From Zestosphaera sp. (GTDB taxonomy: Archaea > Thermoproteota > Thermoprotei_A > Sulfolobales > NBVN01): a DNA stretch of 64,000 nt. A program made the position numbers and the translations under genes. The notes below the pieces were generated by a model. The model was not told the origin of the DNA and did not search any database. It was given only the letters and a program-made list of their open reading frames with translations. The stretch covers positions 1 to 64,000 of the forward strand of contig JAWBSH010000004.1 in the NCBI GenBank assembly GCA_038843015.1, read 5' to 3'. Shown here piece after piece: positions 4,499-55,189 of the stretch; position 1 is the first letter of the stretch; the number at the start of each line of letters is the position of its first letter.

Positions 4499-5701
4499 TT
4501 AAACCACCGAAGGCGTCTTGCGTTCTTGAGTCTTGCTACTACTCTCTACATATGGTCTGAAGCGCTCTTTGAGGGTCTTCTTAATAGCCTCGACAAAGTC
4601 TTCCATAATTATGTAGTTTCTGTTATTTCTTAATGCTATGAATCCTGCCTCAGTACATATGGCTCTTATATCGGCTCCTGAAGCTCCCTCAGTCAACCTC
4701 GCTAAACTCTCTAGATCAACGTCCTTCACCTTCATTTTTCTAGTGTGTATCTTGAATATCTCTAGACGACCCTGGAGGTCAGGTAAGGGGACCTCAATTA
4801 TTCTGTCGAATCTCCCCGGCCTTAGTAAGGCCGGGTCTAGGATGTCTATCCTATTTGTAGTAGCTAAAACCTTAACGTTATCTAGGGGTTCAAACCCGTC
4901 TAGTTCTGCTAACAATTGTGTGAGTGTCCTATGAATCTCTCTCTCACCGCTAGTGCCTATGTCAAGTCTTTTCGCCCCGATAGCGTCGAGCTCGTCAATG
5001 AGTATTATTGCTGGAGCTTTCTTCCTAGCAAAACTAAAAACTTCTCTGACTATCCTGGCTCCCTCACCAACGAATTTCTGAGCTAACTCGGAAGCAACTA
5101 AGCTTATGAACGTGGCGTTAGACTCTCCTGCAACAGCCTTAGCTAGTAAAGTCTTGCCGCAACCTGGAGGTCCGTATAGGAGGATCCCCTTAGGAGGCTC
5201 TATACCCATCTCTCTAAATAATTCAGGATTCTTTAAAGGTAGTTCTACAACCTCCCTTAACTCTCTTATCTGTTCTTTAAGGCCCCCAACGTCACTATAC
5301 CTCACTTTAGGTCTTTCAATAACCTCCATAGCCCTCACGTAAGGGTCTTCAAGTGTGGGGAGAATACCGACTACCGCAGAACCTCTCTGATTAAGCATTA
5401 CTCTAGATCCTGGGCGAGCATTCTTTACATCAACATTTCCCAACACCTCAACTACTAGGTTAGGACCTGTAGAGCTTTTGACTACCGCCCTACCATCAGG
5501 CAATATCTCGAGTAAGACACCCTCTATGAGGGGGGTTGAGAGAAGTTTCTCTATTTCTTTCTTATAGTAGTTTATCTCGTTCCTGAGAAACTCTACTTCA
5601 GTTTCTAGTTCTTGAATCCTCATCTCGAGATATCTTACGTAGTCGTCTGCCGAACCCCTCTTACGCGAGCTATACTCAATACCAGACAATAAACACACCA
5701 C
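4499..5701 (-). CDS. pan: Proteasome-activating nucleotidase (PAN)
   Basis: 400 residues from GTG 5701; a TTG at 5689, with GGTG at a better distance, may be the real start. Order: coiled coil (about 20-54), OB domain (58-115), AAA+ ATPase. Walker A GPPGCGKT 177-184, pore loop KFVG 209-212, Walker [10 protein letters not shown] with D236/E237, sensor TTN near 281, arginine finger region LLRPGRFDR 293-300. The hexamer unfolds substrates and feeds the 20S proteasome. Unusually, the C-terminus reads KTPSVV, without the HbYX tripeptide that opens the 20S gate in well-studied PANs. The downstream PAC2 protein does end in such a motif. Confidence 0.95.
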
Positions 5702-5776
5702 TAAGAAACTAGTATTTTGAAAACCTAAAAAGGTATTTGTTTATTAAAATAACTAAAGAGGGGAGTTAACGAGTTG

Positions 5777-7417
5777 TTACTTCTCCTCTTCTTCTTTCTT
5801 CTCTTTCTTTTCTTCCTTGACTTTGCTAGCTGCTACTACATCGTCAATTCTCAATACTAGAGTTGCTGCTTCAGTACCTGCCTTGATCGCGTTAGTCTTT
5901 ACTGTCAGGGGTTCTATGACTCCTAGGACGTCCATATCTTCTATCTTACCTTTGAATACGTTGACTCCGTACTTAACTCCCTCAGGCTTGTTGTGCGCAC
6001 TCCTCAGCTCTGAGATCATGTCTATAGGATCTAGACCAGCATTCTCTACGAGTGCTGAGACTATCCCCTCTAAGGCTTTAGCGAAAGACAGCACAGCTAG
6101 TTGCTCCTTCCCACCAACTTTAGTCGCGTACTCTCTTAAGTGTCTGGCAATCTCTATTTCAAAGCTACCGCCACCATACACTATCTTGGGGACTCTGAGA
6201 ACATCTGCTACAACACTTAAGGCGTCTCTGAAGGACCTCTCAGCCTCATCAACTACTCTCTCAAGTCCTCCTCTAATTATTATGCTGACCGCCTTCGGGT
6301 CTTTAGTCCCTTCAACAAACACCATCTTGTCTTCTCCTATCTTCCTCTCTTCTACTAGTTCTGCGTAGCCTAAGTCGTTAGGTGTTAGGTCTTCAATGTT
6401 GCTCACAATCTTGCCTCCTGTTGCTCTCTCTAGTTTTTCCATGTCTGATCTTTTTACTCTTCTTACTGCTAGTATTCCTTTCTTTGCTAGGAAGTGCTGA
6501 GCTACGTCATCAATACCCTTCTGACAAATAACAACGTTAGCGCCGGCAGTAGCGATCTTCTCAACCATTTCCTTAAGTATGTTTTCTTTCTGTTCTATGA
6601 ATTTCCTCATCATTTCTGGATCGCTTATCCTAATCTCAGCGTCTATCTCTGTCTTCTCGATCTCTAGTGGTGCGTCGATTAAGGCGATCTTAGCTTTCTC
6701 AACTCTCTTAGGCATTCCGGGGTGCACGACCTCCTTGTCTAGTATGACGCCGTAGACTAACTTAGTGTCCGCAAGCGACCCGCCATGCTTCTTAATTATC
6801 TGTATGTTGTCGAGGTCCACGTATATCCTGCCGTCTCTGTCTTCAGCCACCTGCTTGACGGCCTTCACGGCTATCTCGGCAAAGTACTCTCTAACACCGT
6901 GTACTGCTTTGCTAGTTAAGGCGGTTGAGGCTATCTTCTTGAGAGTCTCTAAATCATTTATGTCTACGTCTCTAGCAATGTTTTCAGCATACCTAGTAGC
7001 TTCCTCAAGTGCTTTCTTGTAGCCGTTAATTATTATCGTCGGGTGGACCTCCTTGTTGAGGAGTTCTTCAGCAGCTTTCAGCAACTCGCCAGCAAATATC
7101 ACCGCAGTTTTAGTTCCGTCACCAACCTCGTCGTCTTGACCTTTAGCTATCTGAACAAGCATCTTAGCTGTCGGGTGTTGTACGTCCATCTTATCAAGTA
7201 TTGTGGCGCCGTCGTTAGTTATCGTCACGTCTCCGAGAGTGTCTACCAGCATTTTATCCATCCCTCTAGGTCCATAAGTAGTCCTCAAGATCTCTGCTAT
7301 AGTCATAGCAGCTACCATGTTTGACCTAAGTGCTTCAGCTCCTGTAGTTCTTTGAGTCCCTTCCTTCAAAATCAAGACAGGTATACCTGCGGTAGGAGCA
7401 ACACCTCTCTGAGCCAT
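5777..7417 (-). CDS. ths: Thermosome subunit (group II chaperonin)
   Basis: 546 residues. N-terminal equatorial domain with [16 protein letters not shown] and the ATP loop GDGTKT (99-104), [16 protein letters not shown] in the middle/apical region, then the second half of the ATP site with IIRGG and a [17 protein letters not shown] helix. The tail is Lys/Glu-rich and lacks the GGM repeats of bacterial GroEL. Eight- or nine-membered double rings fold proteins with a built-in lid. A TATA box AAAGCTTAAATAG lies near 7453-7468 on the minus strand. Whether this is the alpha or beta paralogue cannot be told here. Confidence 0.97.
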
Positions 7418-32134: not shown

Positions 32135-33283
32135 TTAAACAGCCTTAAACTTGGAATCCCATGTTTCGTAAACCTTAACTAACTCTTTATTAACGCTAGG
32201 CCTTCTCTCCTTTATAGCTTCTATGAAGTCCTCCTTACTTATTGGTCTCGGGCTTCCTGAACCGCCACCCTTCGCGAAAAACTCTCGCACGGTCCTTAGA
32301 TGCGCGCTCATAACTATGTCTCTTATGTCACTAGCTGTGTAGCCGTCTAACGAATCAGCTAATTCGTCTAAGTTAACGTCAGGCGATAAATTCAGGGGCG
32401 AGGTATAGAGCTTGAGTAGTTGTCTTCTAGACTCTTTGTCAGGTAGCGGGACGTAAATCCTCTTCTGAAATCTTCTTATGAATGCTTCATCAAGTTTCCA
32501 AGGTTTGTTAGTAGCAGCTATTACGTAAACTAGTCTCTGCTCATTACCCTTGTCTTGCAATCCGTCCATCTCTTTAAGGAATTGAGTCCTGACTCTTACT
32601 TCTCCGCCAATCTCGCTACTAAAGATTCCGAAAAGTGAATCTACTTCATCAATGAATATTATGACTGGCTTAGACTCGCTTGATGAGACTTCCCTTGCCT
32701 TACTAAACAGTAAGGCAACCTTACGCTCAGACTCCCCAAGCCATTTAGACATTATCGAAGCAGCATCAACATGTATAAAAACTCCCTCAATCTCGTTAGC
32801 TACGGCTGCTGCAATGTATGTCTTGCCGCACCCTGGCGGGCCGTAGAGGAGTATTGCTCTAGGCCACCCTAGAGGGAACAAGTCAGGTCTTTTGGTCGGA
32901 TATATTATGGACTCGTATAAAGCTCTCTTCACTTCATCTAGTCCTGCAACCTCGTTGAAGCGTACCTTAGGCTTCTCTCTAACTATTAAATCTTCAATCT
33001 CTTGATCGTAGTTCTCCTCTCTAACAGACCCTGATGAAGGGAGGGGTGAGGTTCTGAAACGTTCTAAGTCTCTTATCCTTTTCTGGTATTGTTTGATCCA
33101 GTCCTTATATATTGTGTTTAGGGGGTTCTCAGGATACAGTTGTATTATTTTAGTCAGTACTTCTATAGCGTTCTTATAGTTTTTTACTGCTTCACCGTAG
33201 TTCCCTTCTCTATCATTCATTACTGCCTGTACTGCATAATGCCTAGCAATATTCTCTAGGTAAGGCAATGAATTACTGCTCAC
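32135..33283 (-). CDS. cdvC: CdvC, Vps4-like AAA+ ATPase
   Basis: 382 residues from GTG 33283. N-terminal MIT domain (about 1-75: ENIARHYAVQAVMNDREGNY then AVKNYKNAIEVLTKIIQLYP) that grips CdvB tails. AAA+ part: Walker [15 protein letters not shown], Walker B VIIFIDEVDSLFG, ATNKPWKLDEAFIRRFQKR with the sensor and arginine fingers, and a Vps4-type C-terminal helix region. It pulls apart ESCRT-III filaments during cell division and vesicle release. Last gene of the cdvABC operon, 24 bp after cdvB. Confidence 0.97.
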   Translation of the reverse strand: MSSNSLPYLENIARHYAVQAVMNDREGNYGEAVKNYKNAIEVLTKIIQLYPENPLNTIYKDWIKQYQKRIRDLERFRTSPLPSSGSVREENYDQEIEDLIVREKPKVRFNEVAGLDEVKRALYESIIYPTKRPDLFPLGWPRAILLYGPPGCGKTYIAAAVANEIEGVFIHVDAASIMSKWLGESERKVALLFSKAREVSSSESKPVIIFIDEVDSLFGIFSSEIGGEVRVRTQFLKEMDGLQDKGNEQRLVYVIAATNKPWKLDEAFIRRFQKRIYVPLPDKESRRQLLKLYTSPLNLSPDVNLDELADSLDGYTASDIRDIVMSAHLRTVREFFAKGGGSGSPRPISKEDFIEAIKERRPSVNKELVKVYETWDSKFKAV

Positions 33284-33307
33284 ATCTAATCACCTTAACC
33301 TAAAAAC

Positions 33308-34183
33308 TCAAAATACTATCTTGTTTTGTTCTCGCAACCTATTCAGTGCTTTATAGACTTCTTCCTTGCTCACGCCCAGCATATCTTTAAAATGATTCAC
33401 GTCTACGAAGCCGTTATGAGTTATTATGTACTCGAGTAGTGCTTTCTCTAGCAGATTCTGGTCAACCATCTTGGACCTGTCTGATTGCTTACTTGGTTGT
33501 GTAATAGCTTCTACCTCCTTCTTAATCTTATCTTCGAGATTCCCTCTAACCTTAACTGGTAGCAGTATGTCTACAGGTATTTCAGGCAGTTGAGATTTTA
33601 TTGTTTCCTCAGCGGCTTTCTCTATTTCTTGAAGTAGCTTCTTAGCTTCAGGTGTGTGCTCAATTATTTCTTCAGGTTTTAACTTGGTGTAGTCTGTCGT
33701 AGACGCTATGACTCTCCTAGACTCGCTAATTAAGCTATCTATATTGTAGGCCAGGTTAGGTACTAAGTCTTTCACGTAGTCTTTAGCGACTACCAGAAGA
33801 TTAGAAACTTCTATCAAGTGGTGCGACAAGTTACTTACGTCTTCTAGAGTCTCAAGCCTTAGCTTCACCTGCTCAAGCACCTTCTCTACGACAACTAACT
33901 TAGTAGTCATTTCCCTAACTTGAGTAGCCTCGTTAGCGTATATGAGCGCACGGTCTTTCTCCTTACCTATACTGGCCGAAATAGTTGCTTTAACTAAGTG
34001 GTCGTACCTGCTTTTTAATCTAGCTACGGTATCTGAGACTTCCTGCTTAGCTGAATCGACGTGTACTATGAGGAGCGAGATAAACTTCTTAGGATCTACT
34101 TTAGACCCTCCTTTAATTCTTCCTACGAGGCTACTAAACCACTTAAAGACCCCTACATCCCCGCCTCCGCTAGCGATGCTCAA
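33308..34183 (-). CDS. cdvB: CdvB, ESCRT-III (Snf7-domain) protein with winged helix
   Basis: 291 residues from TTG 34183, with GGGGTGAG just upstream. Residues 30-200 are the helical ESCRT-III core (KKFISLLIVHVDSAKQEVSD, ATQVREMTTKLVVVEKVLEQ). QLPEIPVDILLPVKV resembles the proline-rich MIM2 that binds the CdvC MIT domain. The C-terminal 55 residues (NLLEKALLEYIITHNGFVDV, GVSKEEVYKALNRLREQNK) form the winged helix that binds CdvA. It polymerises at mid-cell. Further CdvB paralogues are not in the window. Confidence 0.96.
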   Translation of the reverse strand: MSIASGGGDVGVFKWFSSLVGRIKGGSKVDPKKFISLLIVHVDSAKQEVSDTVARLKSRYDHLVKATISASIGKEKDRALIYANEATQVREMTTKLVVVEKVLEQVKLRLETLEDVSNLSHHLIEVSNLLVVAKDYVKDLVPNLAYNIDSLISESRRVIASTTDYTKLKPEEIIEHTPEAKKLLQEIEKAAEETIKSQLPEIPVDILLPVKVRGNLEDKIKKEVEAITQPSKQSDRSKMVDQNLLEKALLEYIITHNGFVDVNHFKDMLGVSKEEVYKALNRLREQNKIVF

Positions 34184-34202
34184 ACCTCACCCCTCCATGA
34201 CG

Positions 34203-34916
34203 TTACGTTACGTCTATTACTTGTACTTGTATCGGTTGTTCTGCCTTACCTTGTTCTTTGGGGGAAGGCTTAGCAGGCGGTGGAGTCACCTCTGTAACAG
34301 GCTTTATTTCACCGGCTTCACTCTCCAACTTCGTGATTAGTTCTAAGTGTTTCTCAACATCTCTTTTCTCATCGAGTGCCTTAGCTTTGTTATTTCTGAG
34401 AAGTTCTGAGGCTGCCTTATACGCTTGATCACTTATTTCGTTACCCATGTAGAGTATCTGCATGTTAGTCATGTCTTTCTCAAGTCTTATTACGAGATCC
34501 TCTAACTCACCTGCTCTCTTCCTAAGAAGCTCCTTAACCTTACTAACTTCTTCCTTGAGTGCTCTAAACTCACTATCTAGTTTCTTCTTTAATTCCTCGT
34601 ATGCGTGTGCAGGTATAGAAGCCTTCCTAAACAACTCTTCAGTAGCTCTTAATCTTCTCTTAACTCTGTCGAGCTTGTTCTCAGCTTCTATCGCTAGAAC
34701 TTTCCACTCAGGCATTACGACAGGTCCGTCAGGCGTTAGCTTGACTCTGCTGACCGGGACATTCTCGTATATAGCGTCATTAATCACTACTTCTAGAGTT
34801 TCTACCTCTCCAGAAACGTTGCTGAACGTAGCTACTAACCTGCCAATGACTCTCCCATACTCATCTTTTATTAACTGACCCACATACTTATCAACTTGAT
34901 CTAAAGTTATTACCAC
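34203..34916 (-). CDS. cdvA: CdvA, membrane-binding division protein
   Basis: 238 residues from GTG 34916. The ORF is open to 35021, but that part lies at and before a TATA box (34954-34967), so it is not coding. N-terminal PRC-barrel-like beta domain (LDQVDKYVGQLIKDEYGRVI), a long coiled coil (about 90-200: KLDRVKRRLRATEELFRKAS, LKEEVSKVKELLRKRAGELE), a Pro-rich linker, and a short C-terminal IQVQVIDVT strand that fits the E3B peptide pairing with the CdvB winged helix. CdvA recruits CdvB to the membrane. First gene of the operon, 19 bp before cdvB. Confidence 0.95.
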   Translation of the reverse strand: MVITLDQVDKYVGQLIKDEYGRVIGRLVATFSNVSGEVETLEVVINDAIYENVPVSRVKLTPDGPVVMPEWKVLAIEAENKLDRVKRRLRATEELFRKASIPAHAYEELKKKLDSEFRALKEEVSKVKELLRKRAGELEDLVIRLEKDMTNMQILYMGNEISDQAYKAASELLRNNKAKALDEKRDVEKHLELITKLESEAGEIKPVTEVTPPPAKPSPKEQGKAEQPIQVQVIDVT

Positions 34917-34953
34917 TGCATTCAACACCTCACAGTAATACTGACAAACATAG

Positions 34954-34967
34954 AAATACTTAAAAGG
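34954..34967 (-). promoter_or_regulatory. TATA box of the cdvABC operon
   Basis: On the minus strand CCTTTTAAGTATTT. It predicts a start near 34935, with GAGGTG then GTG 34916. This places the start codon 35 codons inside the longest frame. Confidence 0.55.
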
Positions 34968-35226
34968 AGTCGGGGGGTGTTTTTCGGGTTTCTGAAAGAA
35001 CTTCACTAATTTCTCAAGCACTTTTCTTCAGGTCTAGCAATGTCGTGTTGGATTTTGTGCAGTTCTCATCACATGGTGAATAGTTCACGAACCCCCTATA
35101 TCTGAGACTATAGTTGCAGGGCAAACTCTATTAATGTAAACTACCGATAGACGTCATTCAAGAGTTCTGTGTAGTAGGAGTTAAGAAGGATTTGAATTAA
35201 AAATAAAAAGAGATTAGGATTTGAGT

Positions 35227-36438: not shown

Positions 36439-36510
36439 GAGTCATCGGCGAAGAGTGGTTCACAGAGTCTCGTCCCTCGCCAACGACTCATCAGCTCATC
36501 GGCTCCCAGC
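36439..36510 (-). ncRNA. Candidate structured RNA with strong TATA box
   Basis: GAGTC (36439-36443) pairs with GACTC (36485-36489) and GGCGA (36447-36451) with TCGCC (36477-36481), separated by symmetric 3-base internal loops. On the minus strand AAGGTATATAAG (36529-36540) is a near-perfect TATA box predicting a start near 36508. The 5' part reads GCCGATGAGCTGATGAGTC, with two box-C-like ATGA motifs. GC-rich against AT-rich flanks. The RNA may extend down to about 36380. No ORF is convincing. Confidence 0.45.
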
Positions 36511-36661
36511 TATTAAAACACGTGGATGCTTATATACCTTTACGTTAGCTCCCGAAACCCACAGAGGTAACCCAAATAACCAAAAAACCAAAACTAAACA
36601 ACATACAAACAGCCACATTAAGTATTTAATCCTTCTAGTAAGATGTTATAGGGGTGTTAGT

Positions 36662-37753
36662 TTGCTTGGTAAACATCCTCTAGAGTTACCGCAACCCAGA
36701 AAGCTTAGTAAGGAGGAAGTAGCTGAAGCTTTGAGACTCTCTATAATAGCTGAGCTAGACGCTATAAACCTGTACCTACAGCTAGCCAGGTATTCTGAAG
36801 ACGAAAACGTTAGGAAGGTATTTGAAGACATAGCTAAGGAAGAGAAGACTCATGTAGGCGAGTTCCTCACCTTACTTAAGTCTTTAGACCCTGAGCAAGT
36901 AGCTGAGCTTAAAGCGGGTGCTAAGGAAGTGAAAGAATTAACTGGGATTACGGTATCGGATAACGACCCACCGATTCAGGAGACTACAGAAGATGAAACA
37001 TTAAAGAAGCTGAGTATTAAAGCTAAGGAGATTGTTGACTCGGTTAGGAAGTTACGTAAAGTGCTAGGAGTTGTTCATGTAGGTAGGGGGGTTGAGGCTC
37101 TCCCACTAGAAGAAGCAGTAGTGGAAGAAACTGCTAGGTCCAAGATTAGTAAGGTGGTGATGCTTAGCGAGATTAGCACTCAATTCAGTATTAAAGTGAG
37201 GATATTAGATTACTGGAGTAAGACAGGGATTCAGCCAGACCTGGCGCCACTCTCACTAGCTTCAACAAAGCTCGCTCTGGCTGAAGATAAAATAATTCTT
37301 GAGGGAGACCTAGAGAGGGGGTGGCCCGGACTCCTCACTTGTAAGATGAGTATTAAGGACGAATTAAGTGACTGGAGCATACCAGGAAATCCAGTAGCAG
37401 ATGTCTCGAAAGCAGTTAAGAGCTTAATTAATGAAGCTATACCACCACCCTACGTGCTGTTAGTGAGTCCGGCAAGATATGCCGACCTATTAAGATACAC
37501 TGAGAGGGCAGGCGTCATGGAACTAGAGAGAGTTAAAGCTCTAGTGAGTGAGGTTGTGCAGACCCCTCTATTAACTGATAATGATGTCTTAGTAATTTCA
37601 ACAAACAAGTACATGATAGATTTAGTTGTCGGAGCTGATACAGTCTTAGACTACCTAGGACCCTCAGCTGACGAACACTTATACAGACTTTGGGAAACTC
37701 TCGTATTAAGGATAAAGAATCCTAAAGCGATAGTGCATCTTATGAAAAAATAA
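36662..37753 (+). CDS. Encapsulin shell protein with fused N-terminal ferritin-like domain
   Basis: About 364 residues from TTG 36662, with GGGGTG five bases upstream; the longer frame crosses the RNA-like region and the promoter and is rejected. Residues 1-75: encapsulated-ferritin (EncFtn) helix pair with AELDAINLYLQLARYSED and AKEEKTHVGEFLTLLKSLDP, carrying the E...ExxH iron ligands. A linker follows, then a HK97-fold Linocin-M18/encapsulin domain (about 120-364) ending HLYRLWETLVLRIKNPKAIV. As in Pyrococcus, the fusion would put ferroxidase domains inside a protein cage for iron storage. TATA box AAGTATTTAATCC at about 36620. Confidence 0.93.
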   Translation: MLGKHPLELPQPRKLSKEEVAEALRLSIIAELDAINLYLQLARYSEDENVRKVFEDIAKEEKTHVGEFLTLLKSLDPEQVAELKAGAKEVKELTGITVSDNDPPIQETTEDETLKKLSIKAKEIVDSVRKLRKVLGVVHVGRGVEALPLEEAVVEETARSKISKVVMLSEISTQFSIKVRILDYWSKTGIQPDLAPLSLASTKLALAEDKIILEGDLERGWPGLLTCKMSIKDELSDWSIPGNPVADVSKAVKSLINEAIPPPYVLLVSPARYADLLRYTERAGVMELERVKALVSEVVQTPLLTDNDVLVISTNKYMIDLVVGADTVLDYLGPSADEHLYRLWETLVLRIKNPKAIVHLMKK

Positions 37754-54644: not shown

Positions 54645-54661
54645 AAGATGAGTATTTAAGG
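54645..54661 (+). promoter_or_regulatory. Ferritin gene promoter
   Basis: GATGAGTATTTAAGGTTT holds a clear TATA box about 35 bp before the ATG at 54695; GGTGAGATAGC follows as ribosome binding site. Confidence 0.5.
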
Positions 54662-54694
54662 TTTCTACTACTAATATTATTTCGGTGAGATAGC

Positions 54695-55189
54695 ATGTCT
54701 TTACTGAGTCCCAGAATACAGGAGTTACTCAACAAGCAATTAAACCAGGAATTAAGGAACGCATACTTATATCTCTCGATGTCTTCATATTTTGATGACT
54801 TAGGTTTGAAGGGCTTCGCGCACTATTTTAGGGTTCAAGCTAGAGAAGAGTTAGGCCATGCCATGAAGATCTACGAGTTTATCTATGATGCTGGTGGTAA
54901 GGTAGTCTTATCAGAAATTCCTCAACCAAAGACTTCATGGGGGGCTGTAAGTGAAGCTATTGAGGACTTTTATGTTGCCGAGGTAGAGAACACCAAGAGA
55001 TTTTATGAGTTAATAGATGTAGCAAGAGAGGAAGGTAATAAAGCTGTGGAGACTTTCCTTAAATGGTTTATAGATGAGCAAGTAGAGGAAGTAAGTAGTG
55101 CTAACGATCTCTTAACGAAGATTAAGATGATAGGAGATCATAAGCCCACGCTTTTAATGCTCGACGCTAAACTAGCTGAAAGAAAATAA
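54695..55189 (+). CDS. ftn: Ferritin (non-haem)
   Basis: 164 residues, four-helix bundle. LNQELRNAYLYLSMSSYFDD holds the first ferroxidase glutamate (NxE), VQAREELGHAMKIYEFI the ExxH, and FIDEQVEEVSSANDLL the C-terminal EQVEE. AEVENTKRFYELIDVAREEG is helix C. It forms 24-mers that oxidise and store iron. A second, unrelated iron system, the ferritin-encapsulin fusion, is encoded at 36662. Confidence 0.96.
   Translation: MSLLSPRIQELLNKQLNQELRNAYLYLSMSSYFDDLGLKGFAHYFRVQAREELGHAMKIYEFIYDAGGKVVLSEIPQPKTSWGAVSEAIEDFYVAEVENTKRFYELIDVAREEGNKAVETFLKWFIDEQVEEVSSANDLLTKIKMIGDHKPTLLMLDAKLAERK

Follow-up and report, generated by a model that had tools for sequence, protein, structure and literature searches.

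Why would an archaeon with a ferritin gene also carry a ferritin-like domain built into an encapsulin, and do the two halves of such a protein stay together in its relatives? The first question, the coexistence of ferritin and encapsulated ferritin in certain organisms, has been raised in print (PMC5012862). We took up both at one locus of Zestosphaera sp., in a contig stretch of 64,000 nucleotides (hereafter the window; JAWBSH010000004.1, positions 1 to 64,000, forward strand), and in genomes of its order and of its phylum, the Thermoproteota.

The window encodes an Flp-fusion encapsulin

The open reading frame of interest encodes an N-terminal EncFtn-type domain (Flp) with the E...ExxH pattern and, in the same frame, an HK97-type family-1 shell (Table 1). 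A six-frame list of open reading frames places its start at a GTG at 36455; we took the TTG at 36662 as the start because this TTG and the GGTG just before it are conserved, as is AAGTATTTAA further upstream, the latter in a comparison of five genomes of the window's genus. By Pfam, the shell matches Linocin_M18 (PF04454) at 135.7 bits against a cut-off of 24.3 (residues 118-347), and the Flp domain matches Rubrerythrin (PF02915) at 38 bits against 22.8 (residues 22-93). By NCBIfam, encap_f1 scores 143.3 bits (cut-off 100, residues 124-360) and EncB_fam 86.8 bits, 3.2 bits short of its cut-off of 90. The closest solved relative by sequence is the P. furiosus virus-like particle 2e0z, which matches residues 2-360 at E = 1.8e-53, and the Flp domain matches the P. 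furiosus Flp 5n5e at E = 1.8e-34. E31, E60, E61 and H64 are invariant in a 41-row alignment of fused relatives. An AlphaFold2 model made from 41 fused relatives (mean pLDDT 89, pTM 0.68) has residues 101-108, between the domains, at pLDDT below 50, as are residues 1-6, and begins a helix at residue 110; a Foldseek search with this model retrieves M. xanthus EncA at E = 1.8e-24, other encapsulin shells near it, and 2e0z at rank 20 (E = 2.6e-21). PF04454 matches nowhere else in the assembly (1.55 Mb, 95.9% complete), and the nearest named fused proteins in a scan of genome contigs come from an uncultured Sulfolobales MAG (86% identity) and from Zestosphaera tikiterensis (61%).

An initial sequence-only reading had described this frame as an E...ExxH ferritin-like domain joined to an HK97-type encapsulin shell, a description that PF02915, PF04454, encap_f1, 5n5e and Foldseek bear out; it was also correct in pointing to a similar fusion from Pyrococcus. 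The window frame is a sound and unremarkable example of the Flp-fusion family-1 encapsulins, a class already described.

Table 1. Features of the window, with their coordinates and the evidence for each.
Feature	Position	Strand	Location	Evidence
MIT/Vps4-type ATPase	32135	-	upstream of encapsulin gene	Pfam
ORF without Pfam match	33308	-	upstream of encapsulin gene	
CdvA	34203	-	upstream of encapsulin gene	Pfam
Small protein, DUF5679 match below cut-off	35227	-	upstream of encapsulin gene	Pfam
DUF2299	35707	-	upstream of encapsulin gene	Pfam
TATA-like promoter element of encapsulin gene, AAGTATTTAA + TTCTA	36620..36637	+		upstream conservation in genus
Flp-fusion family-1 encapsulin, 363 aa, TTG start	36662..37753	+		Pfam, NCBIfam, PDB sequence match, AlphaFold2, Foldseek
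Flp (EncFtn-type) two-helix ferroxidase domain; E31, E60, E61, H64	36662..36952	+	residues 1-97	Pfam/NCBIfam/5n5e; conservation
Linker and start of first shell helix	36953..37012	+	residues 98-117	AlphaFold2 model
HK97-fold shell domain	37013..37741	+	residues 118-360	PF04454, encap_f1, Foldseek to encapsulin shells
Aminotransferase	38113		downstream of encapsulin gene	Pfam
TFB	39608		downstream of encapsulin gene	Pfam
Promoter element of ferritin gene, similar to that of encapsulin gene	54650..54667	+		upstream comparison, pattern match
Non-haem ferritin of 164 aa, 24-mer-type (assembly state from homology only)	54695..55189	+		PF00210, solved ferritins

Flp without shell is common in the order and the phylum

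With the full fusion protein as query, matches were found in 124 of the 214 genomes of the order. Setting aside three in which only the shell part matched leaves 121 genomes with the Flp part. PF04454 is present at E ≤ 0.01 in 79 of these, where a few copies are broken and G058 has no more than a remnant, and is missing from 42, where a few of the Flp matches are fragments; the PF04454 search still reported remnants of about 60 residues. PF04454 without a matching Flp part occurs in five genomes of the order. The 29 single-contig genomes with a match comprise 19 with both parts, nine with Flp only and one, G181, with a shell and a degenerate Flp. These counts come from typed lists of genomes and carry along the gaps of drafts, which most Flp-only genomes are; in the order, Flp without shell is far commoner than shell without Flp.

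In an even sample of the phylum the Flp domain matched in 150 of 398 genomes and, once ten weak matches are removed, 78 of 140 are without PF04454 and 62 have it. Flp and PF04454 shell are separate genes in two genomes of this sample (G496 and G443), where encapsulation of the free Flp by the unfused shell encoded elsewhere is possible. PF05065, the family of other HK97 capsids, was found in none of 17 genomes, namely 15 Flp-only genomes plus G055 and G058.

Comparison with relatives suggests shell loss with Flp kept

Gene order and sequence in the relatives suggest that the Flp half is sometimes retained after the shell half has been lost. In genus g29, G055 and G057 encode fused proteins of 358 residues and G056, assembled as one closed contig, a 105-residue Flp at the corresponding locus, flanked left and right by the same genes and with 78 and 69% identity to the Flps of the other two. 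In nine of ten flanking proteins, by our count, no pair is closer than G055 and G056, and a rubrerythrin-like gene beside the Flp is common to both and missing in G057. The shells of G055 and G057 are sisters in the shell tree (100% SH-aLRT), and their ancestor was therefore fused; since G055 and G056 are closest in their flanks, fusion is the ancestral condition and the shell was lost in G056. Used as a query, the G055 shell found nothing in G056 at E ≤ 1, and across 17 genomes it matched in G055 and G057 only. Beside this one syntenic loss stands one decay in place: G058 has an intact 103-residue Flp frame that ends in its own stop; behind it come a shell remnant of 68 residues (41% identity, E = 1.6e-14) and, by eye, another shell piece in a different frame. 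Together with the conserved and selected Flps described below, the synteny of G056 and the decayed shell of G058 argue that the shell was lost and the Flp retained at least twice, and probably more often.

The Flp tree (102 rows, 98 columns) is short and poorly resolved; it needs 14 changes between the fused and stand-alone forms, and its well-supported branches force at least three. With 11 rows removed, two outgroups and nine on or beside long branches that were dropped after the first tree had been seen, it needs 12 changes, and a single clade of all stand-alone Flps is rejected (p-AU 0.027). Gene transfer may also have played a part in the fused and free pattern. The shell tree mixes the families of the order and has shells of other orders nested inside, in one case within a clade supported at 97%. 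Shell loss was considered and set aside for genus g117, in which the fused and the free form occupy different places in the genome, so that loss is not needed there.

An alternative is that stand-alone Flps are mostly an older, separate archaeal family, to which a shell was added once, the fusion then spreading by gene transfer; we give it real but minority weight. It is consistent with the phylum sample, in which Flp-only genomes outnumber those with both parts outside the order too (64 against 29), with the two loci in g117, and with five complete-looking unfused archaeal shells that form one clade apart from the fused shells (100% SH-aLRT), a topology that fits a single fusion. The synteny of G056 and the remnant in G058 point the other way, and a second, Flp-only place occurs in only one fused genome of the order (G153), where it carries a stop, in a count that sets aside pieces of one gene and the two fused copies of G145.

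Several further loci are recorded here in their own right. The second Flp piece of G153, which also has a fused gene, is truncated (L133, contig C29, 1698-1886, plus strand). The unfused family-1 shells (L184, L185, L187, L188 and L189, from G496, G214, G466 and G443) have frames of 263-338 residues; two of them reach a contig end, and in G496 and G443 stand-alone Flps are encoded at other places as well. Two more rows without Flp fall inside the fused shell group, one with a stop and one cut by a contig end. A decoupling in reverse is seen in a fused encapsulin of the single-contig genome G181 (L123, contig C1, frame 5260-6297, minus strand), from family f9 with Sulfolobaceae-like genomes, which keeps its shell while its Flp domain scores 36 bits and has, by eye, lost E61 and H64. 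A 72-residue shell remnant in G018, a single-contig genome of family f3 (L096, 5518-5733, minus strand), is 71% identical to the shell of G190, of family f9, and is perhaps a trace of gene transfer.

Stand-alone Flps are conserved and short

E31 is present in every one of the 55 fused rows, among them P. furiosus, and of the 45 stand-alone rows; E60, E61 and H64 are each present in 55/55 fused and 44/45 stand-alone rows. These counts take rows of at least 70 bits only, and lower rows, the degenerate L123 among them, were dropped. For 12 pairs of stand-alone Flps, dN/dS is 0.03-0.19 in nine, and dS is saturated in three; judged by these ratios, stand-alone Flps are under purifying selection. 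The 56 stand-alone frames, among which L091 and L180 are the same place, have at most ten residues past the domain and no GSL-type motif, and one of the 56 matches the loose targeting consensus [LF]x[VI]xx[LI]. The stand-alone Flps of the relatives are thus short Flps without a recognisable C-terminal targeting peptide, as in the s-FLP class; as to their encapsulation, which we judged by two shell families only, Flp occurs without PF04454 in 42/214 genomes and PF05065 occurs in 0/15 Flp-only genomes.

A search for a conserved partner, covering 54 loci with a stand-alone gene and 64 with a fused one (some of them near-duplicates), found local ones only. At three stand-alone loci and at 11 of the 64 fused ones the next gene downstream, on the same strand, is rubrerythrin-like (some Pfam matches being below cut-off). 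A short-chain dehydrogenase lies by the Flp at seven stand-alone loci, every one from family f3; g117 has a NUDIX protein, and ABC ATPases are scattered over both forms.

We favour, with somewhat better than even confidence, the reading that in Thermoproteota the Flp and not the cage is the conserved unit: fused encapsulins would repeatedly have shed their shell, free and selected Flps would persist without encapsulin, and an EncFtn without shell would have a role other than caged iron storage. Shell loss matters in light of R. rubrum, where EncFtn is reported to oxidise iron and to need housing in a shell for storage, being unable to store iron without it (PMC5012862). Sister species that share their gene order, some with the shell and some without, are natural experiments in which the contribution of the cage and the role of uncaged EncFtn can be tested, and the parting of Flp and shell in the relatives is the part of this work that deserves specialist attention.

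Ferritin and the question of two stores

The separate 24-mer-type ferritin that the sequence-only reading had placed at 54695 holds up: it matches PF00210 at 140.4 bits and the best solved ferritins at E = 1.6e-45, and is an ordinary ferritin with a four-helix ferritin domain, a 24-mer by homology only. Ferritin is patchy in the order, with 45 of 214 genomes matching at E ≤ 1e-20, a cut-off of our own choice, and 55 at E ≤ 1e-3. It is found in three of the five genomes of the window's genus and in 26 of 78 fused genomes, against 11 of 94 with neither form (Fisher p 0.0007, uncorrected for kinship or completeness). Ferritin as a replacement for the shell was considered and rejected, the direction being opposite to replacement (26/78 fused against 8/42 Flp-only genomes, p 0.14).

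We regard as doubtful the idea that fusion protein and ferritin serve as separate stores for different conditions, oxidative or metal stress as against routine storage. The encapsulin and ferritin genes are both present and apparently intact, and the greater frequency of ferritin in fused genomes than in those with neither form speaks for it; two of the five genomes of the genus have no ferritin, one of them 81% complete, and the resemblance between the promoter elements of the two genes, seen in the three genus members with both, argues weakly against it.

Each of the five genomes of the genus has AAGTATTTAA upstream of its encapsulin gene; G155, from the same family, does not. An element of the form RAGTATTTAANNNTTCYA stands at both promoters in the three genus members with both genes (that of the window, G154 and G151). 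Exact RAGTATTTAANNNTTCTA, a pattern derived from the very two promoter sites it then matched, has two matches in the assembly, those at the 36620 and 54650 promoters, and five more with one mismatch. When the window's upstream regions were compared in 1653 pairs, 27 pairs were at least as alike at 18 bases, and 140, 16, 2, 16, 10, 58 and 29 were so at 12, 16, 20, 24, 30, 36 and 42 bases. The element was not seen in the ferritin promoters of G131, G134, G056, G055, G116 and G117, two of which are from the same family. The likeness hints at shared rather than opposite expression, with weak statistics. Shared regulation of encapsulin and ferritin as a firm result was rejected, given the self-derived pattern, the other pairs that are at least as alike and the six ferritin promoters without the element; we treat it as a weak lead only.

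Locus neighbourhood

Gene order around the encapsulin gene is kept in G154, and close by lies a Cdv cell-division cluster (32135-35021, minus strand) whose order is also the same there; its frame without Pfam match, between CdvA and the MIT/Vps4 ATPase, presumably holds the CdvB position. By Pfam, no rubrerythrin gene adjoins the encapsulin gene among the neighbouring frames. That the frame is a domesticated or recent proviral capsid and not a cellular compartment is hardly credible: the HK97 fold found by Foldseek would suit it, but encap_f1 scores above its cut-off, Pfam matched no phage family in the seven neighbouring frames, CdvA, the Vps4-type ATPase, TFB and the aminotransferase among them, and these neighbours are the same in G154.

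A model for the fused cage, and known systems

We are largely confident in the explanation as a whole, namely an iron cage made of Flp-fusion encapsulin, ferritin as a second store, and a shell lost in at least two lineages that kept the Flp. For cage assembly, activity, mineral storage and free-Flp function we infer the following. If it behaves like its P. furiosus counterpart, the fusion protein is predicted to form a T=3 HK97-type cage of about 180 copies, whose assembly would leave the N-terminal Flp domains inside; there they would pair into E/E/H di-iron sites, predicted from the conserved site residues to oxidise Fe(II), and ferric mineral would build up in the lumen. Ordinary ferritin would serve as a second iron store, in some members of the group only. 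The free Flp, about 100 residues long and under selection, would presumably act as a ferroxidase without shell or as an iron or peroxide detoxifier, not as a store.

Flp-fusion encapsulins are reported to be all archaeal and mostly crenarchaeal, P. furiosus and S. solfataricus included, and the cages of these two to be T=3 with the Flp internalised (PMC8346489); shell and cargo are described as fused in most archaeal systems (PMC8229669). The crenarchaeal architecture is thus already described (PMC8346489), and the window gene carries it into one more genus. The literature searched yielded no paper that joins 'encapsulin' with 'Desulfurococcales'; archaeal shell loss was found in no paper among the matches listed, by titles and the starts of abstracts, and Flp-only relatives are not mentioned in the passages of PMC8346489 consulted. 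Fusion-FLP and s-FLP classes have been defined, with s-FLPs predominantly bacterial and their encapsulation left undecided (PMC11202242), a Non-EncFtn group without encapsulin sequence has been named (PMC5012862), and a cultivated lineage of Thermoproteota is reported to have ferritin-like genes, particles of 35-40 nm and no detectable shell gene (PMC12542729).

The window protein shares with the P. furiosus Flp-fusion encapsulin (2e0z; 5n5e) its domain order, a similar length (345 aa in P. furiosus) and an Flp domain that aligns without gaps over window residues 2-97, whereas the P. furiosus shell is strongly diverged, its best identity to any sampled shell being 33%. No specific link between the two shells was found, P. 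furiosus being a long branch without a firm position among the shells; the Flp tree puts it close to the window's genus, without strong support. Architecture and phylum are the same as in the crenarchaeal Flp-fusion encapsulins, including that of Sulfolobus solfataricus, as described by Andreas and Giessen (2021, PMC8346489), but the window gene has no adjacent rubrerythrin, unlike the systems with such a neighbour reported there. The archaeal stand-alone Flps resemble the s-FLPs (N. europaea 3k6c; PMC11202242) and the Non-EncFtn group (PMC5012862) in being short and without a recognisable targeting peptide; unlike the s-FLPs, reported as predominantly bacterial (PMC11202242), they are common in the window's archaeal phylum, mostly in genomes where no PF04454 was found. 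Finally, M. xanthus EncA is among the nearest shells by Foldseek and EncC matches the Flp domain at E = 3.2e-13, but the cargo of M. xanthus (EncB and EncC), in contrast to the window fusion, is encoded separately and carries targeting peptides (PMC11202242, table 2).
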